From a virus: DNA of 37,011 nucleotides. The notes beneath the pieces are model-generated. The model saw only the letters and a program-made list of their open reading frames with translations, was not told the DNA's origin and did no database searches. Positions 19,537 through 37,011 of the stretch are shown piece after piece. The translations under genes and the position numbers were made by a program. How positions within the stretch are numbered: position 1 is the stretch's first letter; every line of letters begins with the position of its first letter. The stretch spans positions 1-37,011 of IMG/VR virus record IMGVR_UViG_3300042301_000097, one strand, 5' to 3'.

Positions 19537-20646
19537 ATGTGCGACCAACTCAGCCAATTTGTTGTTGAAAAATATGTGCATCTAAAAGATTTTCTTGCAA
19601 AAGAATCATGCGCTGAGTTAACCGCAGAACTTAAAAAGCTAGTTGTTGAAAAACGCACTACGCAAGATGACCAATGCCCTAAGTCGCAAGCCGTACATGG
19701 TGCAATGGCATTTGATAAATTGCTGGTTGACTTGCTTCCACACTTTGAAAAAGCAAGCGGCAAGCGTTTGTATCCGACATATTCCTATGCGCGACTGTAT
19801 GCGCCTGATGATGAATTAGTCATTCACACCGACCGCGAGTCATGCGAGATAAGCGCAACGCTAACCCTTGGCTTTGAAGGCGATGTGTGGGCTATCTATA
19901 TGGGCGATGAGGGCAAAGCTAACCCAAGCCGCATAGACATGGCTGTGGGCGATGCTGTGCTGTATAGGGGCATGGATAAGCACCATTGGCGTGAACGCTA
20001 CACAGAGGGCAAATGGCAAGCGCAAGTATTCTTGCATTATGTAGACGCTGATGGCAAACACGCTGAATGGAAGTTTGACAAACGCCCATCATTGAATTTG
20101 CCAGTGGAAGATATGCGGTTTCGTGCATTCACTGACATACTTACTGACCAAGCCTGTGATGCATTAGTTAAGTTATACACGCAAGACGCTTTACCAAAAG
20201 AATTGCCATTTATTGGTAACGGTGAAAATATTGACTTAACAGTGCGAAATGTTAAGCGTGTGATGTTGCCAACCTATAAAGACATTGGCGGCAGATTGGC
20301 GGCGGCTGGTCTGTCAGCAAATCATTACGCATGGAAGTTTGACATTACCCATGCCAACCAAGCTGAATTTCTTGCCTATCCAGCGGGTGGTCGATATACA
20401 GCCCATGTGGACACATTTATTCAGCATGGTGATGAATGCCGCAAATTGACTGTATTAGCGTTTCTAAACGATAATTTCAAGGGCGGTAAATTCTTCTTGC
20501 AAGATGGTCACAAACGCTTTTACCCGCCACAAACAAAAGGCACTGTGCTGGTCTTTCCCTCATTCATCATGCACGGCGTGGAAGATGTGGAAGAAGGCAA
20601 AAGGTTCAGCGTAGTTTGCTGGATGGTCGGCAAATTTTTTAGGTAA
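19537..20646 (+). CDS. Tandem double-domain 2OG-Fe(II) dioxygenase
   Basis: A 369-aa protein with two complete double-stranded beta-helix dioxygenase units. Domain 1 (about 75-172) has the iron motif H97-T-D99 in LVIHTDRESCE and a distal His at 149/150 (KHHWRE). The 2OG-binding basic residue is not the usual Arg; K159 is a candidate. Domain 2 (about 265-369) has H290-V-D292 (YTAHVDTFI), distal H346 (MHGVED) and R356 ten residues later, the classical 2OG site, resembling prolyl hydroxylases. It lies between the adhesin operon and lysis genes. Possible substrates are the Pro-rich adhesin, host proteins or DNA; none is shown by sequence. Confidence 0.85.
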   Translation: MCDQLSQFVVEKYVHLKDFLAKESCAELTAELKKLVVEKRTTQDDQCPKSQAVHGAMAFDKLLVDLLPHFEKASGKRLYPTYSYARLYAPDDELVIHTDRESCEISATLTLGFEGDVWAIYMGDEGKANPSRIDMAVGDAVLYRGMDKHHWRERYTEGKWQAQVFLHYVDADGKHAEWKFDKRPSLNLPVEDMRFRAFTDILTDQACDALVKLYTQDALPKELPFIGNGENIDLTVRNVKRVMLPTYKDIGGRLAAAGLSANHYAWKFDITHANQAEFLAYPAGGRYTAHVDTFIQHGDECRKLTVLAFLNDNFKGGKFFLQDGHKRFYPPQTKGTVLVFPSFIMHGVEDVEEGKRFSVVCWMVGKFFR

Positions 20647-28072: not shown

Positions 28073-28101
28073 ATTATAACTCAACTTAATACCCTGCGCA
28101 A
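28073..28101 (-). promoter_or_regulatory. Leftward promoter overlapping the end of the cyclotransferase gene
   Basis: Minus strand: TTGCGC (28096-28101), 17-bp spacer, TATAAT (28073-28078). The -35 lies within the last codons of the cyclotransferase gene (stop at 28081). It shares AAGTTGAGTTATAAT-type sequence with the other leftward promoters. It would give extra expression of DUF932 and downstream genes. Confidence 0.7.
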
Positions 28102-28560
28102 GTTAAAGGGTATTAGCTCGGTTATTTTTTTACTGTAAGTTTTTTGCCAAATACATTTGACTGCATAGACCAACTCGTTTACGTCAAGACCGCAATCTTT
28201 GTAACCTTGCGCGATTGAGTCAAAGTAATGCTGTTGCGGAAGGCTGTAATAATCTGCACTCATAAAGTAAACCCATGCTTCAGCAACTTCACCATTAGGA
28301 GTGTCTACGCACACAATGGTGCGGTCATAAAGCGATGGGTAGCCTTCATAGCGGTCTAAGGCTTGTAAACAGTCCTCAGTGACACGCCAAAGCCCTACCG
28401 ACACATCAGAGCCAAGCGCAGGCTCTACATCGGCTACGCCCCTAAAAACAAGCTGGACACCCACTATTTTGCCTGTGCCGACAAACTCAGCATTGGGGCA
28501 ACGAGTAGCCATTTGCTTGTGGTTTAAATTACTGCCATAAGCGGCATACAAAAAAGTCAT
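28081..28560 (-). CDS. Gamma-glutamylcyclotransferase (AIG2/GGCT-like)
   Basis: A 159-aa GGCT-fold protein: LYAAYGSNLN (substrate-binding YGSNL, residues 8-12), VQLVFRGVADVEPA, VGLWRVTEDCLQALDRYEGYP with E72 as the predicted catalytic acid, and SLYDRTIVCVDT. GGCT proteins convert gamma-glutamyl-amine conjugates to 5-oxoproline plus the free amine. It starts in an ATGA overlap with the 80-aa gene, itself overlapping the amidoligase. The substrate is unknown. It probably trims or reverses a product of the amidoligase. Confidence 0.9.
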   Translation of the reverse strand: MTFLYAAYGSNLNHKQMATRCPNAEFVGTGKIVGVQLVFRGVADVEPALGSDVSVGLWRVTEDCLQALDRYEGYPSLYDRTIVCVDTPNGEVAEAWVYFMSADYYSLPQQHYFDSIAQGYKDCGLDVNELVYAVKCIWQKTYSKKITELIPFNLRRVLS

Positions 28561-28799
28561 ACTACACCTCCGATTTTTACAACAAACCTACTGTCAATTA
28601 AATCCTGCAAGAAATTGTCTGTGCTGTCGGTGCGAATAAAGCTATTGCTGTAAGACAAACATCGGTCTGCAACGTCACACATATAAGACTGCGTATCAAG
28701 TGCGGTGGAAAACAAACTGAGGTCACGCATCTTGGCTACAAACATATCTGCACTGTCTGCGCTGATGTAGCCACCGCCTACAAAAAGATATAAGGTCAT
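28557..28799 (-). CDS. 80-aa protein between amidoligase and cyclotransferase
   Basis: MTLYLFVGGGYISADSADMF start. Rich in Ser/Asp (CLSYSNSFIRTDSTDNFLQD) and ends RFVVKIGGVV. The 4-nt overlaps with both neighbours make it an obligate member of the amidoligase-GGCT operon. It could be an acceptor substrate or partner of these enzymes. No family recognised. Confidence 0.65.
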   Translation of the reverse strand: MTLYLFVGGGYISADSADMFVAKMRDLSLFSTALDTQSYMCDVADRCLSYSNSFIRTDSTDNFLQDLIDSRFVVKIGGVV

Positions 28800-29581
28800 G
28801 CGACCTCCGCAAATTTTGCTTGGCGTGCTTGGTAAAAGCTGGCGATTGCTGGCGTGATTGATTTGCTCTTAACCATATAGGTCAACAATGCCGACAAGGT
28901 TGCTGTGCTGTTGTCTGCGGTGGGCTTGGTGACAGGCTTGCCAGCTTCGGCGGCTTGCACAAAACCTGCTGTCAGTCTAATGTAGTTTTCAACTTTGTCT
29001 GCATCGACTGTGCCAGCGTGATTTCTAAACTCGACTGAACCCATGCGGAAGAATGATTGAAGATTTAATTTAAAGTATCTGCTATTACCATACACCTCTG
29101 AAATCTGCGCGATGGTGTTACAGGCTTCAATTTTTGCAAAAGTTTTGTTGACTGAAGTCAATGCGTTTGATTGGCAGTAGCGATTAATACGGCGACTTGC
29201 TGGCTGAATGCTATCCAGCGCGGCTTCATACTTGGTGAAACGCTTGAACAGATTTTTAAATTTTTTGACGTCCCAACCTTGCGCGTTGTGATGAATGTGG
29301 AATCCACATGATTTGTTTACTTGTGCGTTAAGTTCTTGCAAAACCACACAAGCGATACGCGCTTGATAAATACCGTTCTCGCCTTCTAATACTGGGCTAA
29401 CAACTTCAAAGCCGTCTACACCTTGAATAGAGCAGTCTGTTTTGACTTGCCACACATCATAGTCACGACCTGTATAGCCTGCGGTCATTACATTTAAACC
29501 AGCGGTTCTAAGTGCGCTGACAACTATTGAACGGCTAACTCCAAAACACTCCAACTCGATACCAAATTTGCTATTCATCAT
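28796..29581 (-). CDS. Putative amidoligase (ATP-dependent COOH-NH2 ligase-like)
   Basis: A 261-aa enzyme of the Amidoligase_2 superfamily (distant glutamine synthetase / glutamate-cysteine ligase relatives). Visible family motifs: GIELE (7-11), KTDCS (D49), FEVVSP (58-63), CGFHIHH (92-98), RYFKLNL (168-174) and EFRNHAGT (184-191). It should form an amide or peptide bond with ATP. It is the first gene after the leftward promoter, with GGAG before its start, and couples to a GGCT gene two positions on. The substrate, peptide or small molecule, is unknown. Confidence 0.88.
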   Translation of the reverse strand: MMNSKFGIELECFGVSRSIVVSALRTAGLNVMTAGYTGRDYDVWQVKTDCSIQGVDGFEVVSPVLEGENGIYQARIACVVLQELNAQVNKSCGFHIHHNAQGWDVKKFKNLFKRFTKYEAALDSIQPASRRINRYCQSNALTSVNKTFAKIEACNTIAQISEVYGNSRYFKLNLQSFFRMGSVEFRNHAGTVDADKVENYIRLTAGFVQAAEAGKPVTKPTADNSTATLSALLTYMVKSKSITPAIASFYQARQAKFAEVA

Positions 29582-32766: not shown

Positions 32767-33168
32767 ATGGTTAAATTCACTGCAAGCATTGAGCAAAAAG
32801 CCGACCCAGTAATGGATTTTACAATGTGCTTGCTTAACAGCGTGACCACTGGGCATATCTTGCACCTATCAAGCCGCAGTTACAGTCAGCACATGGCACT
32901 GGGTGCGTTTTATGACGGGATTGGCGACCTTGTAGACGCATTTGTTGAAGCATTCCAAGGCAAGTATGGCTTGTTGACCAAATACCCTGCTACTGCAGTG
33001 CTGATGCCTGACATGAACCCAATCGATTATTTGGAATATCTGAAAAACGATGTGCAAACATTGCGTAGGGCAAACGGCTTTCCGCAAGACAGCGAATTGC
33101 AAAATGAAATTGACAACATAGCCAACTTAATTAATAGTACACTGTATAAGTTAAAGTTTCTAAATTAA
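32767..33168 (+). CDS. DUF5856 / Dps-like protein
   Basis: 133 aa from ATG 32767, after a strong GGGAAAGGGGA site. It contains HLSSRSYSQHMALGAFYDGI then DLVDAFVEAFQGKYG, resembling ferritin-like Dps proteins (H-x(n)-H and D/E-rich helices at the subunit interface), and a C-terminal helical pair. If it is a true ferritin-like fold it could bind metal and protect DNA, or be structural. Both the role and the DUF number are from recall. Confidence 0.65.
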   Translation: MVKFTASIEQKADPVMDFTMCLLNSVTTGHILHLSSRSYSQHMALGAFYDGIGDLVDAFVEAFQGKYGLLTKYPATAVLMPDMNPIDYLEYLKNDVQTLRRANGFPQDSELQNEIDNIANLINSTLYKLKFLN

Positions 33169-33181
33169 CTTACAAAACAAC

Positions 33182-33454
33182 ATGACATTACAAGAAATGC
33201 AAGACTTTATAAAAGGGCATCCTTGGACATTTGCCAAGTCAATGCCCAAAATGCCGCATTTTTATGTGGTAAGGGAAAAATGCCGCACAGACGATGAGTT
33301 TGTAGAAGCGGTCAAATTTATTCGCAAATATGGCGTTCCTCGCCCATTTTTCCGTAAAACCTACATTTATTTTGACTTAGATGGCTGGACTTACTGGACT
33401 ATGGGCAACAGCCTTGAGATAACCAAAATTATCAACAGGGCAGAAATTAAATGA
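33182..33454 (+). CDS. 90-aa protein opening the IbrA/ParB island, unknown
   Basis: A distinctive start (MTLQEMQDFIKGHPWTFAKS, then MPKMPHFYVVREKC) and end (YIYFDLDGWTYWTMGNSLEI, then TKIINRAEIK). I recall this small protein accompanying PAPS-reductase-like/ParB gene pairs in phages. Basic, beta-rich, no known catalytic residues. It overlaps the glycosyltransferase-like gene by 4 nt. Confidence 0.72.
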   Translation: MTLQEMQDFIKGHPWTFAKSMPKMPHFYVVREKCRTDDEFVEAVKFIRKYGVPRPFFRKTYIYFDLDGWTYWTMGNSLEITKIINRAEIK

Positions 33455-33999
33455 GATTTATTGTTCGGGCTGTGCAAGAGCGCACAGACTGCATAGAGTA
33501 TTTGCGCACACATTTGCCGCAAGCTGAATGGTGTTTTGACCAAAAGCGCGATGCAATGGACACTTTTTTGCGAGCAATGGAAATGGCTGGCAATGACCCT
33601 TGCGTACACATGGAAGAAGATATTTTTCTTACGCAAGATTTTGTCGGCAAAATTAAGTCGGCTATACAAAAGCGACCCGATGAAGTAATTCAGTTCTTTT
33701 CAATGCGTCAAGCTGATATTGACATTGGTAGCCGATATGACCGCAATTTTATAATGAACCAATGCTTTTACTTACCAGCAACGTGTTCAAAACAAATTTT
33801 TGAGTACAAAAATCAATGGGCTGACATTGAAAAGCATCCAACAGGCACGGATTTAATGGTTAATGATTGGCTCAAAAGCATCAAAAAACCATACTGGCTG
33901 TATGTGCCTAGTTTGGTTGAGCATAGAGTGGGGAAAAGCGCAATTGACTCGCGGCGTAGTTCCAAACGTCAAAGCAAAACCTTTTGCGACCCAGTATGA
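33451..33999 (+). CDS. Glycosyltransferase-like protein (GT-A type)
   Basis: A 182-aa protein starting MRFIVRAVQERTDCIEYLRT. The segment VHMEEDIFLTQDF has an acidic EED at 55-57 at the strand end, the place of the DxD metal site in GT-A enzymes. The FIMNQCFYLPATCSKQIFEY and HPTGTDLMVNDWL segments recall GT25-like family members. The donor and acceptor are unknown; DNA, protein or LPS are possible. It lies in the IbrA/ParB island and overlaps the GNAT gene by 4 nt. Confidence 0.7.
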   Translation: MRFIVRAVQERTDCIEYLRTHLPQAEWCFDQKRDAMDTFLRAMEMAGNDPCVHMEEDIFLTQDFVGKIKSAIQKRPDEVIQFFSMRQADIDIGSRYDRNFIMNQCFYLPATCSKQIFEYKNQWADIEKHPTGTDLMVNDWLKSIKKPYWLYVPSLVEHRVGKSAIDSRRSSKRQSKTFCDPV

Positions 34000-34361
34000 T
34001 TATTTCCATTACGCCACAAGCAATTGACGATTACAAAATTGATGCAATTAAACTTGGCTTGCATTTTTGTCAAAAAACCCATTATTGGGGGTTTTACGAT
34101 GGCGCGGAATTAAAAGGCTTTACAGGCATTCTCTGGTACAAACACAAGGCAGTATTTAAAAATCATTTTGTGCCGTTAAAACACCGCAGACAAGGCATTT
34201 TTGCTGATTTGTTTGACTTTAGCCTGTCCCAAGTTAAGCAAGCGCACATAAAAATTATTGAAGCCAACTGTTCGGCTGATTCTTTGCCGCTTTACATAAA
34301 AAAAGGGGCGGTTATCACCAAACAATACAAAGATTGGACAAAGGTGCAAATTAGCTTATGA
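33996..34361 (+). CDS. GNAT-like N-acetyltransferase
   Basis: 121 aa from ATG 33996, which overlaps the previous stop (ATGA). The GNAT core is visible: a strand (AVFKNHFVPLKHRRQGIFAD) with the R/Q-x-x-G motif HRRQGIF, and a later IIEANCSADSLPLYIKKGAV strand-helix of motif B. The substrate is unknown. The 4-nt overlaps place it in the same island as the glycosyltransferase-like and IbrA-like genes. Confidence 0.78.
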   Translation: MIISITPQAIDDYKIDAIKLGLHFCQKTHYWGFYDGAELKGFTGILWYKHKAVFKNHFVPLKHRRQGIFADLFDFSLSQVKQAHIKIIEANCSADSLPLYIKKGAVITKQYKDWTKVQISL

Positions 34362-35500
34362 AAATATACGGCAAGCAAAATGTTTACGATGCCGCCTTAG
34401 ACCGCATGAGATGGCTGTTTGATGAGTTTCCCAACGTCATTGTGGGCGTAAGCGGCGGCAAAGACAGCACAGTTGTTTATAACCTTGCTTTGATTGTGGC
34501 GCGAGAAAAAAACCGCCTACCCTTGAAATGCTTGTTTCTTGACCAAGAAGCGGAATGGCAAGCGACCATTGACACTATTCAAGACATTATGGAAAACCCC
34601 GAAGTCGAGCCATACTGGTTTCAGATGCCTTTAAAGCTATTTAACGCTACAAGCACAACAGAACATTGGCTTATGTGTTGGGATGCCAAAGACGAAGCGC
34701 GGTGGATGCGACCAAGGGAAAGTTACAGTAAGCACGAAAACGTCTACGGCACAGACAGATTTGCAGAATTATTTAGCGCAATTATTAAAAAAGAATTTGC
34801 TGGCATTAAGACTTGTTACGTTGCTGGCATGAGAACAGAGGAAAGCCCAACCCGCGCAATGGCGTTAACCCATGACTTAACATATAAGCACGTTACATGG
34901 GGCAGTCGGCTTAACAAGCCCGAAGAACACTACACGTTTTACCCAATTTATGATTGGTCTTACATGGATGTGTGGAAATCAATCTTCGACAATAATTGGT
35001 ATTACAACAAAATTTATGATGCGCAATATAACCACGGCATTCCATTGCCCAATATGCGTGTGTCCAATGTCCACCATGAAACAGCGGTTGGCACGTTGTT
35101 TTATATGCAGGAAATTGAGGGCGAAACCTATCAACGCTTAACCCAACGTATTGCTGGCATAGACATGGCAGGCAAAATGGGTAAGCATGACTATTTCCCA
35201 AGACAATTGCCATTTATGTTTCAAAATTGGGTGGAATATCGGGACTTTTTGCTTGAAAAGCTGATAACCAATGAAGATTGGAAAAAGAATTTTAAAAAAG
35301 TTTTTGCCAAGCATGATGAGATTTATGGCGCGGCAATGGGAGAAAAACTATGGAAAGAACACATTAACGCCATACTGACAAATGATTGGGAACAGGTCAA
35401 GTTAGGCAATTTTGTAAGGCGACCCGGCAATATTGATTTAAAACGACAATGGAAAAGGCAACAAGATGAGCTTAAAAGACGCGATTCGGAAAACGATTGA
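34358..35500 (+). CDS. IbrA-like PAPS reductase-family PP-loop protein
   Basis: A 380-aa protein with a PP-loop ATPase motif VSGGKDST (31-38), typical of PAPS reductase/DndC-like adenylating enzymes. LFLDQEAEWQATIDTIQDIM and GMRTEESPTRAMAL are further conserved stretches. C-terminal Trp/Lys-rich region. The length and the partner ParB gene match IbrA of the E. coli ibrAB prophage locus, proposed as a regulator of Ig-binding proteins. It probably adenylates a substrate; the substrate, and whether it modifies DNA, is unknown. It overlaps the ParB gene by 35 nt. Confidence 0.82.
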   Translation: MKIYGKQNVYDAALDRMRWLFDEFPNVIVGVSGGKDSTVVYNLALIVAREKNRLPLKCLFLDQEAEWQATIDTIQDIMENPEVEPYWFQMPLKLFNATSTTEHWLMCWDAKDEARWMRPRESYSKHENVYGTDRFAELFSAIIKKEFAGIKTCYVAGMRTEESPTRAMALTHDLTYKHVTWGSRLNKPEEHYTFYPIYDWSYMDVWKSIFDNNWYYNKIYDAQYNHGIPLPNMRVSNVHHETAVGTLFYMQEIEGETYQRLTQRIAGIDMAGKMGKHDYFPRQLPFMFQNWVEYRDFLLEKLITNEDWKKNFKKVFAKHDEIYGAAMGEKLWKEHINAILTNDWEQVKLGNFVRRPGNIDLKRQWKRQQDELKRRDSEND

Positions 35501-36134
35501 CGAGCAAATAAATGCCAAGGCAAAAGTTGCCGTTATTGAGGAAATTAAGGCTTGGCTTCATGAGTTTAGCCCACAAAAAGAGCAACCAGTTAACCTTGTG
35601 CGGTGGATTCCTATTGAAAAAGTACACGCCAATGACTACAACCCAAACAGCGTTGCCAAAAATGAAATGCGCTTGTTGTATGTGTCCATTAGCCACGATG
35701 GCTACACGCAACCAGTAGTAACTGTCTACGATGAGGAAAAAGACGAGTATGTGATTGTGGACGGTTTTCACCGATATACAACTATGCGCCTTAACAAAGA
35801 CATTTACGACTTAAACAATGGCTTATTGCCTGTGGTGGTTATCCAAAAGTCAATCAATGACCGCATGGCTTCAACTGTCCGACACAATCGTGCAAGGGGT
35901 AAACACAGCGTTTCAGGCATGGCAAGCATGGTGTTCCAAATGCTTGAAAACGGCTGGACTGATGAAGCTATTTGCGGAGAATTAGGCGTAGAGGCTGATG
36001 AGTTAGTGCGCTTAAAACACGTTACAGGCTTTAGCAAACTATTCGAGAATGTCGAATACCGCCGTTCTTGGGAAACCAAGCGACAAATCCAATTGCGTAA
36101 CGAATACAACAAAGGACAAACCAATGAAGCCTAA
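35466..36134 (+). CDS. IbrB-like ParB/sulfiredoxin-fold protein
   Basis: A 222-aa protein with a ParB nuclease-like core: IPIEKVHANDYNPNSVAKNE, then VIVDGFHRYTTMRLNK (DGFHR 99-103) and VRHNRARGKHSVSG (139-151). A helical end (WTDEAICGELGVEADELVRL) follows. It matches IbrB in the IbrA-IbrB pair. ParB-fold proteins can be nucleases, CTPases or ATPases. The ATG at 35466 is inside the IbrA gene, and its own end overlaps the next gene by 11 nt. Confidence 0.84.
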   Translation: MSLKDAIRKTIDEQINAKAKVAVIEEIKAWLHEFSPQKEQPVNLVRWIPIEKVHANDYNPNSVAKNEMRLLYVSISHDGYTQPVVTVYDEEKDEYVIVDGFHRYTTMRLNKDIYDLNNGLLPVVVIQKSINDRMASTVRHNRARGKHSVSGMASMVFQMLENGWTDEAICGELGVEADELVRLKHVTGFSKLFENVEYRRSWETKRQIQLRNEYNKGQTNEA

Positions 36135-36705
36135 GATGGTAAAGCTGACTGATATTAAGCCTTACTGGCGCAATCCCCGCGACAATACAAAAGCCATTCA
36201 AGCAGTCAAACAATCAATTGAAGAATTTGGCTTTAATCAGCCTTTGATTTTGGATGCTGACAATGTAATTATTGCTGGACACACACGCTTTAAAGCTTTG
36301 CAAGAATTGGGCGTTAAAGAAATACCCTGCATTATTAAGGCTGATTTATCTGCGCAACAAGCCAAGGCTTACCGAATTGCTGACAACAAGACAAGCGAGA
36401 TGGCAGAGTGGGATATGTCAAAGTTAATTCCTGAGTTAAGGGAGATTGAGGCTATCGACAGCATGATGATTTATTTCCCCAAAATATCTTTGGAAGATTT
36501 ATTGCAAACGACTGCTGGCGCTGGCGACACCATGAAGATGCCTACACAAGAAAGCATAGGCAAGGTTCAAGCCAAGCTAGAAGCCCAGTTTACAGAGAAT
36601 AGCAAGGCGCGACAGTCGGCTTATGTGGAGGTCACTTGTCCACATTGTGCTGAGTCGTTTCATGTAGATAGAGATGAGATAGCAAGGGCACGTGACGATG
36701 CCTAG
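36124..36705 (+). CDS. Second ParB-fold protein with C-terminal zinc knuckle
   Basis: 193 aa from ATG 36124. The N-terminus is ParB-like (LTDIKPYWRNPRDN, IEEFGFNQPLILDADNVIIA, GHTRFKALQELGVKEIPCII), then KAYRIADNKTSEMAEWD (83-97). The end has CPHCAESFHVD, a small CxxC-x(n)-H metal site. Such domains are often fused or adjacent to DNA methylases in phages, but no methylase is seen. It overlaps the HNH gene by 8 nt. Confidence 0.85.
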   Translation: MKPKMVKLTDIKPYWRNPRDNTKAIQAVKQSIEEFGFNQPLILDADNVIIAGHTRFKALQELGVKEIPCIIKADLSAQQAKAYRIADNKTSEMAEWDMSKLIPELREIEAIDSMMIYFPKISLEDLLQTTAGAGDTMKMPTQESIGKVQAKLEAQFTENSKARQSAYVEVTCPHCAESFHVDRDEIARARDDA

Positions 36706-37011
36706 TATCCCAACTTATACAGCGTGCCAACAGCTTGGTTGCAAGCAAACACGTTCTAAGTACAACAGCTATTGCCTAGAGCATGGGGGAAAGGATTTGT
36801 TAGCTGTGAGTGATGGCAGACGTGCAAGCAATTCTATGTACCAAACGCACGCATGGCAGATAATGCGGCAAGGTCAATTAAGCATACAACCCTTATGCCA
36901 AGCCTGCTTATTAGATGGAAAGGTTACCCAAGCCGAACACGTTGACCATGTATTTAGATGGCAACACATAGGTAAGGGTGCGTTCTACAACAACTTACTG
37001 CAAAGCTTATG
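36698..37011 (+). CDS. HNH endonuclease, truncated at the window edge
   Basis: A partial frame of 104 residues and 2 bases from ATG 36698. An N-terminal zinc set C10-x4-C15 and C26-x2-H29, then a core C67-x2-C70 with EHVDHVFRW (the H of HNH) and YNNLLQSL as the N motif. Packaging-associated HNH proteins continue with a Cys-x-x-Cys-His segment. That is absent here because the window ends. This type typically lies upstream of terS/terL and assists terminase cutting, fitting a circular or permuted genome. Confidence 0.85.
   Translation, partial: MPSIPTYTACQQLGCKQTRSKYNSYCLEHGGKDLLAVSDGRRASNSMYQTHAWQIMRQGQLSIQPLCQACLLDGKVTQAEHVDHVFRWQHIGKGAFYNNLLQSL

Follow-up and report, generated by a model that had tools for sequence, protein, structure and literature searches.

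Adjacent, overlapping genes for a DUF3440 PP-loop protein and a ParB-fold protein are known from Escherichia coli, as IbrA/IbrB in its prophages and as YbdN/YbdM in strain K-12. A homologous pair lies in a six-gene island at positions 33182-36705 of the complete IMG/VR virus record IMGVR_UViG_3300042301_000097, which was analysed here over all of its 37,011 bases (the window). The PP-loop protein of the island (PP) is 27% identical to YbdN, and the first of its two ParB-fold proteins (ParB1) is 40% identical to YbdM, so that the IbrA/IbrB-type pair named in the original prediction, which was made from the window sequence without database searches, stands. Unlike the island, K-12 ybdN/ybdM have no second ParB gene (ParB2), glycosyltransferase (GT), GNAT or methyltransferase gene alongside, nor the gene for a 90-residue protein that we call p90. 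Judging by sequence, the pair corresponds to the known IbrA/IbrB, while the wider cassette, its exchangeable gene slot and p90, of which no description was found in the literature searched, appear to be the new part. We consider the island to be probably (about 0.6) a member of a widespread, modular phage cassette for nucleobase hypermodification that acts on phage DNA.

Several DNA modification systems offer points of comparison. In Dnd phosphorothioation the PP-loop protein DndC is paired with DndB of the ParB superfamily (PMC10853773), and the island shares this pairing. In Dpd deazaguanine modification a ParB-like ATPase, DpdB, works with the base-modifying TGT DpdA (PMC12839542); a ParB-fold ATPase and a base enzyme would be common to both systems, but the base enzyme of the island would be the PP-loop protein instead, and no match to the TGT family was seen among the island's open reading frames (ORFs) in Pfam, PHROGs and NCBIfam scans, which included no dedicated DpdA search. 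Phage cytosine hypermodification by CmoX/CmoY comprises a base-modifying step and a further, ATP-dependent ligation, and ParBc genes are frequent neighbours of the DNA carboxymethyltransferase CmoX (PMC12783734). These three features resemble the pathway proposed below, although neither a CmoX-like nor an asparagine-synthetase-like gene is among the island ORFs. In phages, ParB-fold domains are also often fused to N6_N4 methylases (PMC12704722). The cassette of the Microbacterium phages Hendrix and Leaf shares GTs, GNAT and PP with the island but has more GTs, and in Hendrix p90 is fused to a methyltransferase. The PP end of Hendrix carries two GTs, a GNAT, the p90-methyltransferase gp156 and PP; its three ParB genes are at the opposite end of the linear record. 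The PP end of Leaf is similar. Dewdrop and Rasputia, like these two, are cultured Microbacterium phages that carry the cassette. The genes of the island are the following.

33182-33454, + strand: p90, 90 residues; core gene, family not known
33451-33999, + strand: GT, a small GT-A glycosyltransferase; slot gene
33996-34361, + strand: GNAT, an N-acyltransferase, with an ATG start at 33996 (an alternative TTG start at 33984 would give a longer ORF); slot gene
34358-35500, + strand: PP-loop protein, an ATP pyrophosphatase/adenylating enzyme of IbrA/YbdN-like, DUF3440 type; core gene
35466-36134, + strand: ParB1, IbrB/YbdM-like, with a ParB/Srx fold; core gene
36124-36705, + strand: ParB2, the second ParB-fold protein, with an ATG start at 36124; core gene

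The six ORFs and the overlaps at their junctions (4, 4, 4, 35 and 11 nucleotides, in order) are exactly as first described. The original prediction read this coupling as a sign of one biochemical system. Tight overlaps are ordinary in this phage, however: 21 of the 48 other adjacent same-strand junctions also overlap, and 16 of the 48 have the 1- or 4-nucleotide geometry typical of translational coupling. Overlap statistics were therefore rejected as proof of coupling, and the case for one system must rest on relatives, where co-inheritance does support it.

Viral contigs of a 2.9-million-contig collection were scanned with three anchors (p90, GT and PP), and with earlier loci gave 193 locus groups once identical contigs had been merged. 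The loci are metagenomic contigs with mechanically called ORFs, and a gene was counted as present when it lay inside the fetched stretch, strict adjacency not being demanded; as evolutionary independence does not hold for every group, a tree-based check was added. Among 67 p90-anchored groups, PP was present in 61 and ParB1 and ParB2 in 56 each; the 78 PP-anchored groups contained ParB1 in 76 cases and p90 in 44, and PP accompanied 60 of 65 GT anchors. Where PP and p90 occurred together (128 groups), ParB1 was found in 121 and ParB2 in 122. Co-occurrence of this kind across so large a collection is not due to chance, and p90, PP, ParB1 and ParB2 form a conserved core. The usual gene orders are ParB2-p90-[slot]-PP-ParB1 and p90-[slot]-PP-ParB1-ParB2, and a large terminase gene commonly adjoins the cassette (86 loci). 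Thus the expected recurrence of the island in relatives holds for four of its genes and not for GT and GNAT, which come and go while p90, left uninterpreted in the original prediction, stays. A second architecture, in which a SNF2-type helicase (phrog_62) accompanies PP and ParB1 without p90, was also observed (L223, L226, L230, L232, L233, L017, L018 and others); among PP-ParB1 loci the helicase is present in 15 groups lacking p90 and in none with p90. It is found in Flavobacterium FCL-2 and Streptococcus D4276, and includes Streptococcus thermophilus phages.

Between p90 and PP lies a slot of one to three genes, which vary between phages. Its contents include the GT family, GNATs, other class I methyltransferases, GT2 enzymes and GalE, and cytidylyltransferase genes are present in some cassettes. 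A slot family of about 200 residues with (D/E)PPW and DPxCGxG motifs matches N6/N4 DNA methylases (PF01555) in 13 of 27 members, and also matches DNA-methyltransferase PHROGs. Another family, of about 174 residues with invariant HxD and H residues, is dioxygenase-like by motif. Other slot genes match S-adenosylmethionine decarboxylase (SpeD; 2e-21) and pyruvoyl arginine decarboxylase (PvlArgDC; 1e-48), and a saccharopine-dehydrogenase-like protein also occurs (these genes are at L215:4327-5001, L211:2217-2582, L087:5925-6455 and L173:3838-5001); they hint at aminopropyl, agmatine or amino-acid-derived donors. Two methyltransferase-like slot genes stand in tandem between p90 and PP in five loci (L030, L060, L064, L085 and L090), and the two subfamilies co-occur strongly, with 24 of the 33 groups that have the second also having the first.

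At least 63 changes of slot state are needed on a tree of 114 PP proteins. The five nearest PP relatives of the window have GNAT only, GT only, or both, and GT is absent from about half of the cassettes; GT and GNAT are accessories of the slot and not obligatory. The acetyl and glycosyl transfers that the original prediction listed as steps of the system are accordingly interchangeable, and no sequence of acetyl then glycosyl transfer is implied. One regularity is a link between GT and the dioxygenase-like gene: GT is present in 36 of 37 groups with that gene and in 47 of 134 without it, figures whose raw Fisher value is inflated, part of the sample being GT-anchored. In p90/PP-anchored groups alone the link persists (6 of 7 against 30 of 115, p 0.003), as it does when pairs that are independent in the phylogeny are compared (about 8 to 0, with a median p of ~0.008). 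A hydroxyl introduced by one enzyme and glycosylated by the other would be expected to leave such a pattern. Mutual exclusivity of GNAT and DNA methylase was not significant once phylogeny was considered. The parts are further tied together by fusions: L095 encodes a single GT-ParB protein (GT 5-180, ParB 241-371), L211 a GT2-PP protein (GT2 1-253, PP 259-621), and p90 is fused to methyltransferase and to GNAT, as detailed below.

The PP-loop protein is above the Pfam cut-offs of PAPS_reduct (PF01507; 54.9 bits, cut-off 22.5) and DUF3440 (28.6, cut-off 25), and its SGGKDS loop is retained in 173 of 183 homologues. PAPS reductases carry a catalytic C-terminal cysteine motif, ECGxH. This motif is present in none of the 183 homologues, which share no invariant cysteine, the best cysteine column reaching 68%. 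Scores against the PAPS reductase/cysH families of NCBIfam are far below the cut-offs (TIGR02057, 12.7 against 254.2; TIGR00434, 17.4 against 165.1), and the same is true for DndC (TIGR03183, 33.5 against 290.4). PAPS reduction and DndC chemistry were both rejected on these grounds; the missing motif and cysteines make sulfate reduction unlikely. The best solved relatives of the PP profile are the adenylyl-transferring CysD and FAD synthase, with PAPS reductases next. This likeness, together with the lack of redox cysteines, points to activation with AMP rather than to movement of sulfur, and the enzyme most likely activates something with AMP. The SAM decarboxylase and arginine decarboxylase genes of some slots are suggestive of an amine as the reaction partner.

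p90 occurs in 128 PP-bearing locus groups and has two conserved motifs, A-K..MP..PH and YW.M...INR. It has no profile match at any meaningful level in Pfam, PHROGs or NCBIfam, and BFVD holds one unnamed homologue of 93 residues. The AlphaFold model is confident (pLDDT 97), but comparison with the PDB gave no convincing fold match (best Z 4.0), and assignment of a function by fold was dropped. In 24 of 149 groups p90 is joined to a class I methyltransferase; it is joined to GNAT in L062 and to SpeD in L215 (4327-5001). A tblastn search of cultured phages with p90 and with GNAT returned no match, yet direct comparison showed that gp156 of phage Hendrix, annotated as a methyltransferase, has a p90-like domain at its N-terminus. 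From these fusions we infer that p90 may be a recognition or docking module for enzymes acting on nucleic acids. A scan of bacterial genomes for p90 found 16 loci in metagenome-assembled genomes; 15 of them had a p90 ORF, and PP was absent from all 16. Some of these loci lie near nuclease-like genes, which Pfam did not confirm. In a Levybacteria genome (L256, 4843-5472) p90 is fused to a weak HNH/Endonuclease VII-like domain, and in a Verrucomicrobia genome (L262, 5974-7236) two copies flank a Pol-beta-thumb-like segment; these bacterial fusions could be modification-dependent nucleases.

The functional calls of the original prediction for the other genes survive profile or structural comparison. 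The GT has no Pfam match but matches the glucosyltransferase family phrog_854 (1.3e-6), and its structure, modelled from 76 homologues (pLDDT 94), has a clear GT-A fold. Its nearest structure is Mimivirus R655 (Z 15.2, root-mean-square deviation (rmsd) 2.8 over 160 residues), and human collagen galactosyltransferase COLGALT1 with UDP-Gal is similarly close (Z 14.6), the matches spanning 160-165 residues at rmsd 2.8-3.0. A MEED motif, with D57 invariant, provides the acidic metal/nucleotide-sugar motif of GT-A enzymes. The GNAT is above the Acetyltransf_10 cut-off (25.0 bits, cut-off 23.6), and RimI-type and polyamine acetyltransferases are among the solved profiles nearest to it. ParB1 falls just below the Pfam cut-off for ParB_N (24.6 against 26.3 bits) but matches the 'ParB-like' phrog_2159 at 4e-74; ParB2 exceeds the cut-off (35.6 against 26.3), matches phrog_620 and ends in a zinc-ribbon-like CPHC motif. 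The conserved boxes of the ParB proteins (in ParB1, DGFHR and RHNRARG) fit nucleoside triphosphate (NTP) binding, which is one half of the nuclease/NTPase role foreseen for them; the analysis gave no evidence for the nuclease half.

In the proposed pathway, ParB1, as an NTP-binding protein, and p90, as a putative base-recognition or nucleic-acid-recognition module, would bring DNA to the PP-loop enzyme. Using ATP and releasing pyrophosphate, this enzyme would adenylate a carbonyl or similar group, which would then take a nucleophile, probably an amine; ParB2 may assist this reaction. A swappable tailoring enzyme would complete the added group. In this phage the GNAT may acylate the amine and the GT-A enzyme may add a sugar from a nucleotide-sugar, whereas relatives may use methyl transfer, hydroxylation followed by glycosylation, or aminopropyl- or agmatine-type donors instead. 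The purpose would most likely be to shield the phage genome against restriction by the host. It is possible, though doubtful, that the island represents a new class of DNA hypermodification: a PP-loop enzyme would adenylate the base and couple an amine to it, p90 would direct the reaction and the slot would set the final group; the base adenylation and amine coupling would then be, just as tentatively, the DNA counterpart of lysidine and agmatidine chemistry.

The multi-step modification system, possibly on DNA, that was originally suggested is still the best reading, with DNA as its presumed substrate. DNA is favoured by the amino-methylases of the slot, the loci with SNF2-type helicases and the precedents for ParB-fold proteins in DNA modification. 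Group-transfer enzymes, DNA-type enzymes among them, are co-inherited with the core across relatives; the window's own slot holds GT and GNAT, not a DNA methylase. A number of points weigh against DNA hypermodification. In all carrier phages the hypermodified base is deduced from genes alone, and GT, GalE, acetyltransferase and cytidylyltransferase genes would also fit modification of surface glycans. The K-12 ybdN/ybdM pair lacks slot genes, implying another or simpler function of the core in that strain. The role given to p90 is drawn from fusions, with no fold match beside them, and the dioxygenase identity from motifs, a profile-profile comparison with the window's 2-oxoglutarate (2OG) oxygenase having given no support (a single-sequence template made this a poor test). 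The GNAT and ParB2 models are broad, and the former may catch unrelated GNATs.

Modification of tRNA or mRNA is an unlikely alternative: a TilS/ThiI-like PP-loop enzyme would act together with slot enzymes that decorate host or phage RNA, either to escape defences aimed at RNA or to adjust translation. The PP-loop enzymes are well known for tRNA modification, class I methyltransferases and GNATs modify RNA too, and tRNA genes adjoin the cassette in Hendrix and Leaf. However, the window contains no tRNA gene, the slot methyltransferases match DNA N6_N4 methylases, and the cassette flanks terminase and is associated with SNF2-type helicases. Somewhat less probable again is lysogenic conversion, where GT, GNAT, GalE and cytidylyltransferase would alter glycans or lipids of the host envelope and block superinfection. 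The obligatory core, made up of a PP-loop enzyme, two ParB-fold proteins and p90, includes no glycan enzyme, the many cassettes without GT would be hard to accommodate, and GT and GT2 are fused to ParB and PP, respectively; this is despite the GT-A fold, weak GT25/LPS-type Pfam matches in relatives, the GalE and cytidylyltransferase genes of some cassettes, and the fact that acetyltransferases are common in O-antigen conversion.

We give still less weight to the idea that the PP-ParB pair is a transcription co-activator, as E. coli IbrA/IbrB is for the eib genes, or a DNA-segregation factor, with its neighbours as passengers. The named homologues, the ParB fold and the stand-alone pair of K-12 speak for it, but it would not explain why group-transfer enzymes replace one another at a single position, nor the GT-ParB, GT2-PP and p90-methyltransferase fusions. 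That PP is a viral cysH boosting host sulfate assimilation is very improbable. The PAPS_reduct match is above cut-off, and viral cysH is among the widely reported auxiliary metabolic genes (PMC8725595, PMC9301287), but the cysteine pattern and NCBIfam scores described above stand against it, and neither the island nor the recurrent slot and flank families include a sulfur-assimilation gene.

Around the island, the record has terminase and portal genes at the left, with the six genes at the right end; genes for ERF, DUF932, a GGACT-family protein and an amidoligase lie between the left structural genes and the island on the minus strand. The GGACT/AIG2-like gamma-glutamylcyclotransferase and Amidoligase_2 genes (28081-29581, -) are a few kb upstream of the island, and 31 PP-bearing groups have an amidoligase inside the fetched stretch, often divergent and directly upstream of the cassette, where it possibly provides an extra amide-forming step. 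Immediately 5' of p90 is a DUF5856/phrog_858 protein (32767-33168, +), whose homologue in L008/L172 is placed after ParB2, so that in close relatives it keeps to the neighbourhood of the cassette. An HNH nuclease gene (36692-37011) overlaps ParB2 and is truncated at the right end of the record without being resumed at the left end; hence either a short genome stretch is missing or the ends are not directly joined. The window's 2OG-Fe(II) oxygenase (2OG-FeII_Oxy_3, 2.8e-16; 19537-20646, +) is in the late structural region, distant from the island.

The phage IbrA/IbrB pair thereby gains a concrete, testable function, and p90 is a new conserved protein family that resembles a targeting module. 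Pfam would label homologues of the window's PP protein as cysH-type. Some of the often-cited signal attributed to 'cysH' as an auxiliary metabolic gene of viruses may be misread DNA-modification machinery; if the proposed function is true, many viral 'cysH' sulfur genes would be DNA-modification genes. The swap slot would be a natural library of group-transfer enzymes working on one substrate, and may aid in finding DNA modifications and the defences that they evade.

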